Positions 58,714 to 63,591 of a stretch of 64,000 nucleotides of DNA are shown here, in pieces; within the stretch, counting starts at the first letter, position 1; each line of letters opens with the position of its first letter. Origin of the DNA: Adhaeribacter arboris (GTDB lineage: Bacteria > Bacteroidota > Bacteroidia > Cytophagales > Hymenobacteraceae); NCBI RefSeq assembly GCF_003023845.1, contig NZ_PYFT01000001.1, forward strand, positions 558,001-622,000. The letters run 5' to 3'. Position numbers and translations under genes: made by a program. The notes beneath the pieces are model-generated. The model made no database searches, was not told the origin of the DNA, and was given only the letters and a program-made list of their open reading frames with translations.

Positions 58714-60624
58714 CTACTTGATTAAAGTAACAGAGCCTTTTCGCTGAATCGTGTTACCATCGAGGTCTTGCGCCGTAAAGGAGAAAATATACGTTCCTAC
58801 GGGGGCATCCTGGCCGTTTATTTTACCGTTCCAGCCTTCGCCGGGATTTTTGCTTTCGAAGATAACCTGGCCCCAGCGATTATAAATTTTGAGGCGAACA
58901 GCTTGAATAAACCGGCCTTTTACTTCAAAAATATCGTTCAAGCCATCGCTATTCGGCGAAAAAGCGTTGGGTATGGTGGCAGTAAAAGCTTGCGCGACGC
59001 GTATTTTATTCGAATAGCTTATTTCCGGTGAATTAGCAGTAGTAACTTTTATGCGATAGGCCAAAAGTTGACTAGTCGTATTTAGTTTTCTATCCGTAAA
59101 AGTAGTATTGCTTCCCACTTCGGAGGAACTAAGCAGTTGACCGGTAGCATCATCCGATACTTCAATCGTATACCTAGGAGCAGCGGTAAGGCCCACAAAA
59201 GCCGACCAGCGCAAATTCACCCGGTTCTCCGTTGAATGAAACGTTCCACTTAAAATAACCGGACAAGTTTGATTGCTCACCGCCGAAGTAAGTCCACAAG
59301 AGTCCGTGTAAGTAGCCTGGTAGCAAGGTTGATTATTTTCGTTAAAAGAGGCACTATCCAGATAAAGGGTTTGCTTTACTTGACCGAGATTGACGAAGGG
59401 CCCATTATTTATTTTCTTTTGCCAGCTTACTTCCGCTAAGGTTTCGTTTGTTGGGATAAGTAATTTTAATACTACCTGATTTTGCGCGTTAAAGGAGGCC
59501 AGAGCAAAGCCGTATTGGGGCGGCACGGTAGCCACACCTGTTTGGCAAGTATCGTTAGAGCGCGAACTACGGTTAGAAATTAATTGCGCGACTACCTGGT
59601 AACAATACTGGCGACCACAGGCTACGGCTGCATCCAGATAAGTAGTAGCGGCAGCCGGCAAAGTTTGCAGTAGCTTGTTGTCGCGAAAGATTTGGTAATT
59701 TACTACTTCAGTTGTATTGGGGTACGGTGACCAAAGTATTTGTAAAGCCTTTTCGGCGGAAGTAATTTTAATGGGTTGCGATACCAGCACCTGGGAGAAA
59801 ATACCGGTTTTAGTACCACAAGAATCTGTTACCTGTAGGCGGTATTGGTAAGGGGTACGCGTATCGGTATGGGTGAGGGTAATAGTGCCGGAAACGGGAA
59901 CGGAGGAAAGTAGTTGTATTTCCTGAAAGTTGGTGCTACCCACCGGGGCTCGTTCAATGAAATAATTATAGTCCGGTTGTAAACTGGAGGCTTGCAAAAT
60001 TAAACTGCCCTGACTCACGGCGTATTGAGTGATTTGCAGGCTTTGTAGTTCCGGAATGTTTATAGCCGGTAAGGTTTGTACCTTTACTGTATTCTCGACG
60101 GTACAAGTAGCATTACGATACGCCGCTTTAATACTAATCTGATAGGTGCCGGCATTTTTATATTGGTAGCTAGTGTCTTTGCCCGGTAAAACCCGCCGCT
60201 CAGTACCATCGCCGAAGTTAAGGCGGTAATAATCGTAATGCGCATCCGTAATTCTAAAATTAACTTTATTGAAGGCGCAGGTAAAACTCGTGAGGGTGGG
60301 TGGGGGAGTGTTTAATACGGTAAATGTTCGCTCGAACTGGTTATTACCGGGCAAGCCCGTATTAATTAATTGCGTAACGGTGTAAGTGCCCGGCGCATTA
60401 TAAGTAACGCTTTTCGTCGTGTCCGGGAAAGCTAATCCGTCGTTTTTGTTAGCGTCGTAATATTCTTTATCGGGTTGGGCGTTAGTTGAGCAAGATTTAA
60501 ATCGAATTTTTTCACCTACGCAAAAGATGTTTACTTCCAAGCCTTTGGCATTATAAGCTTTAAATTTCTCGGGACAATTTGTTTGGGCTTGTAGTTTTGT
60601 GCCGAATAAAAGACTAAGCAGCAA
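58714..60624 (-). CDS. secreted protein with PKD-like domains and T9SS type-B sorting domain
   Basis: This 636-residue protein begins at a TTG (60622-60624). Its signal peptide ends near LQAQ, but the hydrophobic run starts several codons upstream of this TTG. PKD-like and fibronectin-like beta domains follow, with FNFGDGTERR-like segments, repeated cysteines and a STAEV-type strand pattern. The last 85 residues are the gliding-motility type C-terminal domain with NAFSPNSDGLNDIFEV, IYNRWGQVIFES and NGQDAPVGTYIF. It should be exported by T9SS. It lies in the same frame as the preceding HAL-like gene, separated by one stop codon. Confidence 0.82.
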   Translation of the reverse strand: MLLSLLFGTKLQAQTNCPEKFKAYNAKGLEVNIFCVGEKIRFKSCSTNAQPDKEYYDANKNDGLAFPDTTKSVTYNAPGTYTVTQLINTGLPGNNQFERTFTVLNTPPPTLTSFTCAFNKVNFRITDAHYDYYRLNFGDGTERRVLPGKDTSYQYKNAGTYQISIKAAYRNATCTVENTVKVQTLPAINIPELQSLQITQYAVSQGSLILQASSLQPDYNYFIERAPVGSTNFQEIQLLSSVPVSGTITLTHTDTRTPYQYRLQVTDSCGTKTGIFSQVLVSQPIKITSAEKALQILWSPYPNTTEVVNYQIFRDNKLLQTLPAAATTYLDAAVACGRQYCYQVVAQLISNRSSRSNDTCQTGVATVPPQYGFALASFNAQNQVVLKLLIPTNETLAEVSWQKKINNGPFVNLGQVKQTLYLDSASFNENNQPCYQATYTDSCGLTSAVSNQTCPVILSGTFHSTENRVNLRWSAFVGLTAAPRYTIEVSDDATGQLLSSSEVGSNTTFTDRKLNTTSQLLAYRIKVTTANSPEISYSNKIRVAQAFTATIPNAFSPNSDGLNDIFEVKGRFIQAVRLKIYNRWGQVIFESKNPGEGWNGKINGQDAPVGTYIFSFTAQDLDGNTIQRKGSVTLIK

Positions 60625-60645: not shown

Positions 60646-61800
60646 TTAAAGGTTGGTTGTAACACGGGCATAGATAAACGAAATCGTTTTCCGGATGAGT
60701 TCAGCAAAAACAGTTTCCTTTAAAACGTCAATTACCTGATTTCGGTATACTGCCCGCAAGTTCTCTTCTGAATTTATATTTTTCTTTAAACTGTCTGTTG
60801 TAGTTAATTGTAAAATGGTGGCAAGGGCCAGTATATGTTCCAGGTTTTTTAATATCTGGTAAGGTTGTAGCCAAAAATGACGAATAAAATTAGTCGAAGG
60901 CCCGGAATTCGTGTCAAAGCCGCTTTCGTACATAATTAAATTTTCCTCGCTTAAGGTTTGCAGCAAAGCAAGCAAGTACTCTGCCTTCACAGACAAGTTT
61001 TCGTTTAAAGTAAAAAGCGTAGAATTATTATTTCTATTTTCGGAAAAGCTTTCTGTAATATGTTCCCCAAATTTAGCCAGTAATTTCTCTAATTGGCAGG
61101 TTAAACCGCTGAGGTGCTTTTGTTGCGTTTGCGGATAAGCCAGGGCTTCGTTTAACTGACTTTGCAAATGCTCTATTTGAGCCGGGAAAAGTTTTTCTGT
61201 AGAGGATAGATTCGGAGATTCCGGAAGCAAAATTTGGTAATAGCTAAATAATTTCTTGAACTGAATAAAATTGTATACCAAGCTACCCCAACCTAAAAAA
61301 GAAGCTTGCGGCAGGGTGGCCGGCAACTTTTCGGGCCAGGAGTTGATTTGCCAGCTAAAAATATCGTGCACATCAGCGGCATTTAGTAAGTAATTTTGGA
61401 AGTATACTTTGCCCTGGCCAAATACCGGCATCAGCAAATGGGCGGTCGGAGAAACGGCAAGTCCCTGACTGAAAACTTGCGGAAGAATTTCAAACTCGTA
61501 AAATTCCAGTATCCGGCTAATAATTTTGGAATTTAAAGGTAGCGGGTTTTTCGCGAAGAAGTCGGCCAGTAACAAAAGCATGACGCGCGTAATTTCTGCC
61601 GGAACTTCTAAGCCCAACCCAATAGCAAAATTCTTTAATTCTTCGGAAGTTAAACCCTCTCTTTCAGAATAATTATTAAACGCATCAGCTTTATCCCTTG
61701 GCTCAACTGAATATTTGAGACTTACTTGTTGAGAAAGAATATCCTGAATAATTTCAATGGTGAGCGGAATTTCGGGTTGAAGCCGGAATATTTCTTCCAT
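60646..61800 (-). CDS. degenerate histidine/aromatic ammonia-lyase homologue lacking the MIO motif
   Basis: This 384-residue protein is shorter than a usual ammonia-lyase (about 500). Residues 60-133 follow the HAL pattern closely: GLEVPAEITRVMLLLLAD, SKIISRILEFYEFEILPQV, then SQG and TAHLLMPVFGQGKVYF. In active HAL the sequence between these last two pieces contains Ala-Ser-Gly, which forms the MIO cofactor. Here that segment is missing. The usual N-terminal YGINTGFG region also seems absent. The C-terminal STNFIRHFWLQPYQILKNLE resembles the HAL helical core. It ends one base before hisS. It may be a pseudoenzyme. Alignment is by eye. Confidence 0.62.
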   Translation of the reverse strand: MEEIFRLQPEIPLTIEIIQDILSQQVSLKYSVEPRDKADAFNNYSEREGLTSEELKNFAIGLGLEVPAEITRVMLLLLADFFAKNPLPLNSKIISRILEFYEFEILPQVFSQGLAVSPTAHLLMPVFGQGKVYFQNYLLNAADVHDIFSWQINSWPEKLPATLPQASFLGWGSLVYNFIQFKKLFSYYQILLPESPNLSSTEKLFPAQIEHLQSQLNEALAYPQTQQKHLSGLTCQLEKLLAKFGEHITESFSENRNNNSTLFTLNENLSVKAEYLLALLQTLSEENLIMYESGFDTNSGPSTNFIRHFWLQPYQILKNLEHILALATILQLTTTDSLKKNINSEENLRAVYRNQVIDVLKETVFAELIRKTISFIYARVTTNL

Positions 61801-61801
61801 T

Positions 61802-63277
61802 TCAAACCGCTAATTTCTTCAAAATTTCGTCTACCCGCAGATTTTCCTGTTCGCCGGTACGCATATTTTTTAATTTTAACTTGCCGGTTGTTATTTCTTC
61901 CGAGCCGATTAGTAAAACATAAGGTATATTTTTCTGATCGGCATAGGTCATTTGCTTCCCTAATTTCACCTGATCGGGATAAAGCTCGGTAGCAATATTC
62001 GCTGCCCGTAACTGCTGTAAAATGGGTAAGGCGTACTTTTCGGATTGATTATCAAAATGGGTGATCAAAACTTGGGTACTGGTTTGGGCTGACTCAGGAA
62101 ATAATTTCAACTCTTCTAGCACATCGTAAATACGGTCCACGCCAAAGGAAATTCCCACTCCCGAAACATTCGGTAAACCAAACATACCCGTTAAGTTATC
62201 GTAGCGCCCGCCGCCGGAAATACTTCCTATTTTTACATTATTTACTTTTACTTCGAAAATGCAACCGGTATAGTAGGAGAGACCACGGGCAAGGGTAATA
62301 TCCAAGGCAATTCTGCGAAAATTTTTAAAACCTAAATTTTCTAAATAAAATTTTAATCTTTTTAAATCGTCATATCCATAAGGATTGCGAAATACCCGCT
62401 TTAGAATATTCGGCCTATCTTCTCCTATTGGCAATCTGTTTTCATCTAATTCAACATCCTCTCGAATCTCACCAATAGCTTCATCAACCTTTATTTTAAG
62501 CTCATCAATTTTATCAAACGTACCATTTAATGATAATATATCAAACAGTCTTTCAACCATTTCAATAGTAAATCCTTTTTCTAATAGTTCTTTACTTACT
62601 CCTTCACGACCAATTTTGTCTAACTTGTCAATAGCGGCAAATAAATCGGTTTCAGTACCTTGCGCTCTTAGTGCCTGGTATAATCCGCCTAAAATATTTC
62701 TATGATTAATCTTTATCGTAAAATCAGTAATCCCTAAATTAGTTAAAACCTCATCAATCATCAGCACTATTTCGGCTTCGCAGAGCAGCGATTTAGTACC
62801 AACTACGTCGGCATCACATTGGTAAAATTCGCGATAACGACCTTTTTGCGGACGATCGGCCCGCCAAACCGGTTGAATCTGGTAGCGTTTAAAGGGGAAA
62901 GTAATTTCGTTGCGGTTCATTACCACGAAGCGGGCAAAAGGTACCGTTAAGTCGTAGCGCAAAGCCCGTTCGGTAATGGCGGGAGTGGAAAAGGGCTGTT
63001 GAAGAATTTTATTCCAATTCTCTTGAAGTTTCTCTTTTTCCGGCTCTTTCTTTTCGTGCAGACCGTTGTTTAAGATTTTAAACATTAATTGATCGCCTTC
63101 TTCGCCGTACTTACCCGTTAGCACCGATAAATTTTCCATGGCGGGCGTCTCTAAAGGCTGAAAACCAAATTTCTCGAAGGTTCTCTTAATGGTATTAAAT
63201 ATATAATTACGCTTTCCTACTGTTTCCGGACTAAAATCCCGGGTTCCTGTCGGAAGGCTCGGTTTTTCTTTGCTCAT
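61802..63277 (-). CDS. hisS: histidyl-tRNA synthetase
   Basis: This 491-residue class II synthetase starts with PSLPTGTRDFSPE. It has the LRYDLTVPFARFV segment with motif 2 nearby, the QIQPVWRADRPQKGRYREFYQCDADVVG motif, the LARGLSYYTGCIFE histidine-binding loop and the GGGRYDNL motif 3. A C-terminal anticodon-binding domain ends the protein. It attaches histidine to tRNA-His. The start ATG at 63275-63277 is clear. It is followed, one base away, by a HAL-like protein of the histidine-lyase superfamily. Confidence 0.96.
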   Translation of the reverse strand: MSKEKPSLPTGTRDFSPETVGKRNYIFNTIKRTFEKFGFQPLETPAMENLSVLTGKYGEEGDQLMFKILNNGLHEKKEPEKEKLQENWNKILQQPFSTPAITERALRYDLTVPFARFVVMNRNEITFPFKRYQIQPVWRADRPQKGRYREFYQCDADVVGTKSLLCEAEIVLMIDEVLTNLGITDFTIKINHRNILGGLYQALRAQGTETDLFAAIDKLDKIGREGVSKELLEKGFTIEMVERLFDILSLNGTFDKIDELKIKVDEAIGEIREDVELDENRLPIGEDRPNILKRVFRNPYGYDDLKRLKFYLENLGFKNFRRIALDITLARGLSYYTGCIFEVKVNNVKIGSISGGGRYDNLTGMFGLPNVSGVGISFGVDRIYDVLEELKLFPESAQTSTQVLITHFDNQSEKYALPILQQLRAANIATELYPDQVKLGKQMTYADQKNIPYVLLIGSEEITTGKLKLKNMRTGEQENLRVDEILKKLAV

Positions 63278-63314: not shown

Positions 63315-63357
63315 TAAATCGCGGATTTACGCGGATTGTACGGATTACGCAGATTAT
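63315..63357 (+). repeat. family A intergenic repeat, left arm
   Basis: The unit has GCGGATT-like motifs spaced by about 9-11 bases and matches the reverse complement of 63545-63587 with few mismatches. Confidence 0.78.
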
Positions 63358-63360
63358 TTC

Positions 63361-63401
63361 TAAATCGCAGATTAAACGGATTGCACGGATTACACAGATT
63401 T
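63361..63401 (+). repeat. family A intergenic repeat, tandem second unit
   Basis: This is a second copy directly after the first, with the same order of motifs (AAATCGCAGATT, then ACGGATTGCACGGATTACA). It is more diverged than the outer copy. Confidence 0.68.
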
Positions 63402-63515: not shown

Positions 63516-63544
63516 CCCTACTATCATAACTCCTATTTCAAGTT

Positions 63545-63587
63545 ATAATCTGCGTAATCCGTGCAATCCGCGCAAATCCGCGATTTA
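63545..63587 (-). repeat. family A intergenic repeat, inverted right arm
   Basis: The reverse complement matches 63315-63357 closely. It ends four bases before the stop codon of the hydrolase gene at 63592. Confidence 0.78.
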
Positions 63588-63591
63588 GAAC

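Follow-up and report, generated by a model that had tools for sequence, protein, structure and literature searches.

The gene at positions 60646–61800 of the minus strand in the window, the whole 64,000-nucleotide stretch of DNA that we analysed, encodes a protein of 384 residues with the fold and ancestry of the HAL/PAL family. It is probably a pseudoenzyme derived from HutH and kept by selection for a non-catalytic role of its scaffold. The window case is one instance of a change that has recurred in its family and goes with loss of the Hut pathway.

Likeness to the HAL/PAL family, which the original prediction had drawn from alignment by eye, is borne out by sequence and by structure. PF00221 matches the window protein at 37 bits (E = 2.2e-9), above its curated gathering cut-off of 27.3; the hutH equivalog model gives 24.6 bits, far under its cut-off of 539.15. 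Searched against the PDB as a single sequence, the protein recovers the P. putida HAL at E = 0.008, with an unrelated yeast protein scoring equally, and a single-sequence scan of the genome contigs did not find its relatives. A profile (A1) of the window protein and 14 other MIO-lost relatives, 2 of the 15 near full length, aligns with residues 9–490 of P. putida HAL at E = 4.7e-45 and picks out 78 loci in the genome contigs. The AlphaFold (AF2) model has a mean pLDDT of 81.5 and a pTM of 0.87; it is not independent of intact HALs, because they are among the 50 sequences of its input alignment (A2). In the AlphaFold and Foldseek comparison that the prediction had proposed, HAL/PAL-superfamily folds came out on top: Foldseek returned 90 PDB matches at E ≤ 1e-3, including HAL 1b8f at E = 3.9e-9 with a TM-score of 0.71 of the query, and the 50 of these that were listed comprise HALs, PALs, TALs, aminomutases and ergothionase. 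The ancestor of the protein was a genuine HutH. An intact relative, P0001, scores 612 bits against the hutH equivalog model (cut-off 539) and aligns with P. putida HAL at E = 1.6e-109. Ancestry from a flexirubin TAL was considered and ruled out: P0001 reaches 350 against the FlxA model (NF053541), whose cut-off is 700, yet lies above the hutH cut-off.

The window protein has lost the HutH active site at every position checked. In the family alignment, QGLAVSPTAH (residues 112–121; 61438–61467, minus strand) stands at the lost MIO loop where HAL has QGSLGASGDLAPLAH, and Ala-Ser-Gly occurs nowhere in the protein; the columns of the catalytic Tyr53 loop, YGINTGFG, are a gap, and the equivalents of Asn195, Tyr280, Arg283, Phe329 and Glu414 are missing or replaced. 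The predicted absences of the MIO triad and of the N-terminal catalytic Tyr region are thus confirmed, as is the short length: described as about 100 residues under the family norm, the protein has 120 fewer than P0001 (504 aa, stop to stop). We checked 13 active-site positions, given in the numbering of P. putida HAL and located through its alignment with P0001, and 0 of the 13 residues remain. Histidine deamination by the window protein is very unlikely, because the lost residues include those described as catalytic or positioning, namely the Ala-Ser-Gly triad and the equivalents of Tyr, Glu414, Asn and Arg (PMC11432326), and the loop Tyr, mutants of which are reported to be inactive (PMC9002059). 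Neither a urocanase match nor a hutI above cut-off was found in the genome, and together with the 0 of 13 residues this supports the predicted lyase fold unable to deaminate. The suggestion that the protein may bind histidine fares worse, at least for the old pocket: the substrate-site residues are lost too, and we reject binding by that route on this ground. A role in regulating another HAL alongside it can also be set aside in this organism, since the window gene is the sole PF00221 match in its 7.2-Mb genome; of 45 family genomes sampled, 43 likewise have one match each.

The family to which the window belongs shows how this state may have been reached. A homologue was found in all 204 of its genomes, which include Hymenobacter, Pontibacter, Rufibacter and Adhaeribacter; those of the window's own genus include A. 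rhizoryzae, A. aerolatus and A. aquaticus. The MIO motif was read in 191 of the 204, excluding as rows two second copies (G365hut and G255par) and one entry from outside the family (G011x); the other 13 genomes all have urocanase, with homologue matches at ~1e-207 or better. ASG(D) is kept in 155 of the 191 and lost in 36, namely all 8 of the window's own genus, 26 of genus g2 and 2 of genus g3. The lesions vary: AYG or AFG (Ser to Tyr or Phe), deletion of Ser (AGD), AGHD, and deletion of the loop. One clade of genus g2 (L040–L044 and L047) carries Ala-Tyr-Gly or Ala-Phe-Gly as its MIO triad, the former similar to the triad that makes the chromophore in GFP-like proteins.

Urocanase (PF01175) is missing from 55 of the 204 family genomes, and its presence was set against the state of the MIO motif. 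Among the 191 genomes, 135 have both ASG and urocanase, 20 have ASG without urocanase, 35 have lost both, and a single one has urocanase with a lost motif. That genome, G365, contains a second HAL (L049) with ASG and the Tyr loop, on the same contig as urocanase and hutI, and its dead lyase (L087) lies on the hisS contig; the separate hut locus is either a regained pathway or contamination. None of the 55 urocanase-negative genomes has a hutI above cut-off, but G365 and all 10 urocanase-positive controls do. Of the 135 genomes with ASG and urocanase, 134 retain the full set of 13 checked residues, the exception being G306, which is gapped in the Tyr region. The full set is also present in 18 of the 20 with ASG and no urocanase, and in 0 of the 36 MIO-lost genomes, each of which keeps 0 to 8. 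From this distribution of MIO motif, urocanase, hutI and active-site residues we conclude that the Hut pathway was lost first and the active site later. The active site can outlast the pathway: because 18 of the 20 urocanase-negative ASG genomes keep the whole checked site, decay is not immediate or not obligatory. Two urocanase-negative genomes with ASG and an altered Tyr loop, G337 (L074) and G414 (L082), are possible first steps of the same decay. A hutI relic split by stops (G305:C1:599621-600375) lies in a genome with an intact HAL and no urocanase, apparently a pathway caught in decay.

Outside the family, 124 of 246 sampled genomes of the order have no urocanase match, and 83 of these 124 have no PF00221 match either; 2 of the 122 urocanase-positive genomes lack a PF00221 match (all counts made by hand from lists). 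Inside the family, the lyase gene is absent from 0 of the 55 urocanase-negative genomes. This contrast in retention is suggestive only, being confounded in two ways: the ten hisS-linked HALs that we looked at outside the family come from urocanase-positive genomes, and the HALs that disappeared elsewhere could have belonged to hut clusters.

Loss of the MIO motif arose, we estimate, about six times or more. Parsimony requires 11 changes of MIO state on a FastTree hisS tree built from the 181 rows for which both traits were available. An IQ-TREE hisS tree of 87 rows, in which the outgroup G011 was entered twice under two names, requires 10. Three MIO-lost clades of Hymenobacter are strongly supported and separate (G255/G309/G374; G276/G300/G334; and G261/G258/G208/G351/G308). 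Further origins, in other genera or places, are the window's own genus, G140 and G431; the G140 lesion, a deleted Ser, is of the same kind as that of the G255 clade, but in a different genus. The remaining MIO-lost rows of Hymenobacter are intermixed with intact rows on weak branches. Support is weak for the deep branches of the hisS tree as well, and the window's own genus is not recovered on it as a single supported clade. An independent-pairs test of MIO loss against urocanase yielded only six pairs (starred branches; median p 0.125), too few for the test to carry the link, which is drawn instead from the distribution described above.

These losses are alike in what they spared. In lineage after lineage, the part removed is the active site and the part kept the helical scaffold. 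Seven lineage groups retain almost nothing of the stretch equivalent to P0001 residues 246–296, which includes Tyr280 and Arg283: the window's own genus, the G276 clade, the G261 clade, the G352 group, G344/G358, G214 and G366. The Tyr loop is missing or mostly so in the same seven groups. The same applies to the MIO loop in the majority of these groups and to the Glu414 loop in several; near full length is retained in the AYG clade and the g3 cases. Control stretches (92–147, 158–215, 345–365 and 430–460) are nearly complete in all 36, at the lowest 26/31, with G308 as an exception at 41/56 residues. In the window protein, conservation and segment dN/dS mark out a retained scaffold block at residues 122–155 (helix, beta-hairpin, helix, FSW; 61336–61437, minus strand), in which P125, Q135, Y137, L139, F148 and W150 are invariant across the 15 MIO-lost sequences.

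High conservation of the retained block, together with Arg96, Gln135 and Tyr137 invariant across the same 15 sequences, might be expected of a novel MIO-independent enzyme or ligand binder built on the HAL scaffold, and ergothionase (6s7j) is among both the structural and the profile matches. The A1 profile nevertheless matches HAL more closely (E = 4.7e-45) than it does ergothionase (6.3e-18) and, because the ways in which the old pocket was emptied vary among clades, no common new site is visible. We consider a new activity of this kind very unlikely.

Purifying selection acts on the remnants. In 14 MIO-lost pairs, hand-picked from a longer set of listed pairs together with two own-genus pairs, NG86 dN/dS lies between 0.09 and 0.47, all below 1, with upper 95% bootstrap bounds of at most 0.62; for the window gene against G293 it is 0.23 (0.17–0.31). 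Every value among the listed pairs of the longer set is below 1, the highest being 0.60. As NG86 estimates of dS are unreliable in GC-rich genomes, comparison between groups outweighs the absolute values. Intact HAL pairs (80 drawn) have a median dN/dS of 0.153 (range 0.026–0.285), which the whole-gene values of many lost pairs exceed, and hisS in six lost pairs gives 0.012–0.147; the remnants as a whole are therefore relaxed. The segments 92–147, 158–215 and 428–460 give 0.14–0.17 in 10 lost pairs and 0.16–0.21 in 6 short-form pairs, against 0.14–0.21 in 20 intact pairs; these scaffold segments are about as constrained as in intact HALs. At the C-terminal end the values are 0.27 in lost and 0.21 in intact pairs. 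As far as sequences can tell, the window protein thus combines a dead active site with purifying selection, as a pseudoenzyme under selection would.

Slow neutral decay of a useless gene, on its way to loss, would account for the graded series from intact to short forms in lineages deprived of the Hut pathway, and for evolution faster than that of hisS in the six pairs compared. It is difficult to reconcile with dN/dS below 1 in 14 of 14 pairs, with open lyase frames in 8 of 8 members of the window's own genus, which diverge down to ~21% identity, or with the gene being absent from none of the 204 genomes. Such decay strikes us as highly improbable.

The neighbourhood of the gene bears both on the main rival and on the choice of a partner. 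Immediately upstream lies hisS (61802–63277, minus strand), encoding a histidyl-tRNA synthetase of 491 residues (TIGR00442, 402.5 bits; cut-off 286.75), and immediately downstream a gene for a CHU_C (T9SS type) protein with a PKD domain (58714–60624, minus strand; PF13585, E = 6.1e-20). The frame of the pseudo-HAL begins with ATG and a single base separates it from the hisS stop (TGA A ATG), just as predicted. In a promoter and terminator scan, no terminator-like site was found on the coding strand of the hisS–lyase interval; promoter-like sites numbered 19, where shuffled sequences gave 11.2 (sd 4.0), and terminator-like sites 5, where they gave 5.2. Upstream of hisS, at 63317–63400 and 63540–63590, a short repeat with ATCCGCG and ACGGATT words occurs in two copies of opposite orientation. 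Among the matches listed for the window HisRS, full-length alignments at 70% or more come only from G293, G296 and G430, and many relatives' HisRS align to it in part, which raises the possibility of a mid-protein insert in the window HisRS.

The original prediction held that the lyase homologue travels with hisS. This is so in the window's own genus, where hisS is directly upstream of the lyase gene in 8 of 8, but the association is not exclusive. At the 76 family loci from the A1 scan, hisS lies within 300 bp in 47, at 459 to 5426 bp in 19 and outside the fetched stretch in 10, some of which are contig ends; a CHU_C homologue follows the lyase gene in all 76, even where hisS is displaced. 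In G273, hisS is ~2 Mb from the lyase gene and the CHU_C gene is still next to it. Ten loci outside the family, chosen for adjacent hisS and HAL, keep ASG and the Tyr loop in 10 of 10 HALs and have the CHU_C gene next in 9, from which we take the hisS–HAL–CHU_C cluster to predate the family. Linkage to hisS is genuine, but it does not point to HisRS in particular as the partner; linkage to HisRS as the sole reason for retention is weakened by G273 and by the 47 of 76 loci set against 76 of 76 for CHU_C.

The main rival explanation is that the protein is idle, a relic whose frame stays open and foldable owing to its position between hisS and CHU_C, because premature termination would have polar effects and misfolding of the product would be harmful. 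The constant CHU_C neighbour, shrinkage of the reading frame in frame and the one-base junction with hisS are all what such upkeep of operon expression would produce. Upkeep of an open frame does not by itself predict that three scaffold segments should be constrained at about the level of intact HALs; G273, moreover, retains the protein with hisS far off, and not one of the 204 genomes has lost the gene. We judge the relic explanation unlikely, if less so than neutral decay or a new activity.

We therefore favour a pseudoenzyme kept for its scaffold. On this view a genuine HutH had long resided in a hisS–hutH–CHU_C cluster, and loss of the Hut pathway left its catalysis without a use. In-frame changes then altered or removed the active-site loops, several independent times, and the scaffold stays under purifying selection. 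Its putative non-catalytic role would already have been present in the intact enzyme and would most likely be the binding of a protein partner; histidine is not sensed through the old pocket. HisRS is our first candidate for this partner, at less than even odds, given how long the two genes have been linked and the single base between them. One could go further and envision the hisS-linked HAL of the order as a protein with two jobs, a deaminase that has long had a second, non-catalytic function in the hisS cluster, where it might bind or restrain HisRS and so couple charging to histidine supply; we hold this broader proposal to be possible and somewhat doubtful. If it were true, each loss of the Hut pathway would have freed the protein of its enzymatic job and left the structural one, and the family would offer about six or more replicate natural separations of two functions.

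Most known pseudoenzymes come from duplicated genes. In the present family, a metabolic enzyme that is mostly single-copy became a pseudoenzyme several times in parallel, in an identifiable setting, the loss of a downstream pathway, and with living intermediates that could show which parts of the fold have a second function. Were HisRS the partner, the system would constitute a new link from histidine breakdown to tRNA charging. Among the listed literature matches, drawn from open-licence PMC papers, we recognised neither a dead HAL like that of the window nor a hisS–hutH cluster.

The closest known system is HutH itself (TIGR01225, PF00221; 1b8f), with which the window protein shares ancestry and fold, and whose intact family members share the position after hisS; the window protein differs in that the MIO triad, the Tyr53 loop, Asn195, Tyr280, Arg283, Phe329 and Glu414 are missing or replaced. 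FlxA (NF053541), other MIO lyases and aminomutases belong to the same superfamily. Ergothionase of Treponema denticola (6s7j) is an example of the HAL fold in a different job, an enzyme that catalyses another reaction without MIO; unlike the window protein, it is about full length, at 497 residues, and active, and the A1 profile finds it well behind HAL. For the reuse of a dead protein, the nearest parallel is HisZ, the regulatory subunit of ATP phosphoribosyltransferase, a dead relative of a housekeeping enzyme that serves as a partner protein in histidine metabolism. HisZ resembles HisRS (PMC8305728). HisZ may thus offer a model for the pseudo-HAL, the one derived from HisRS and the other from HAL.
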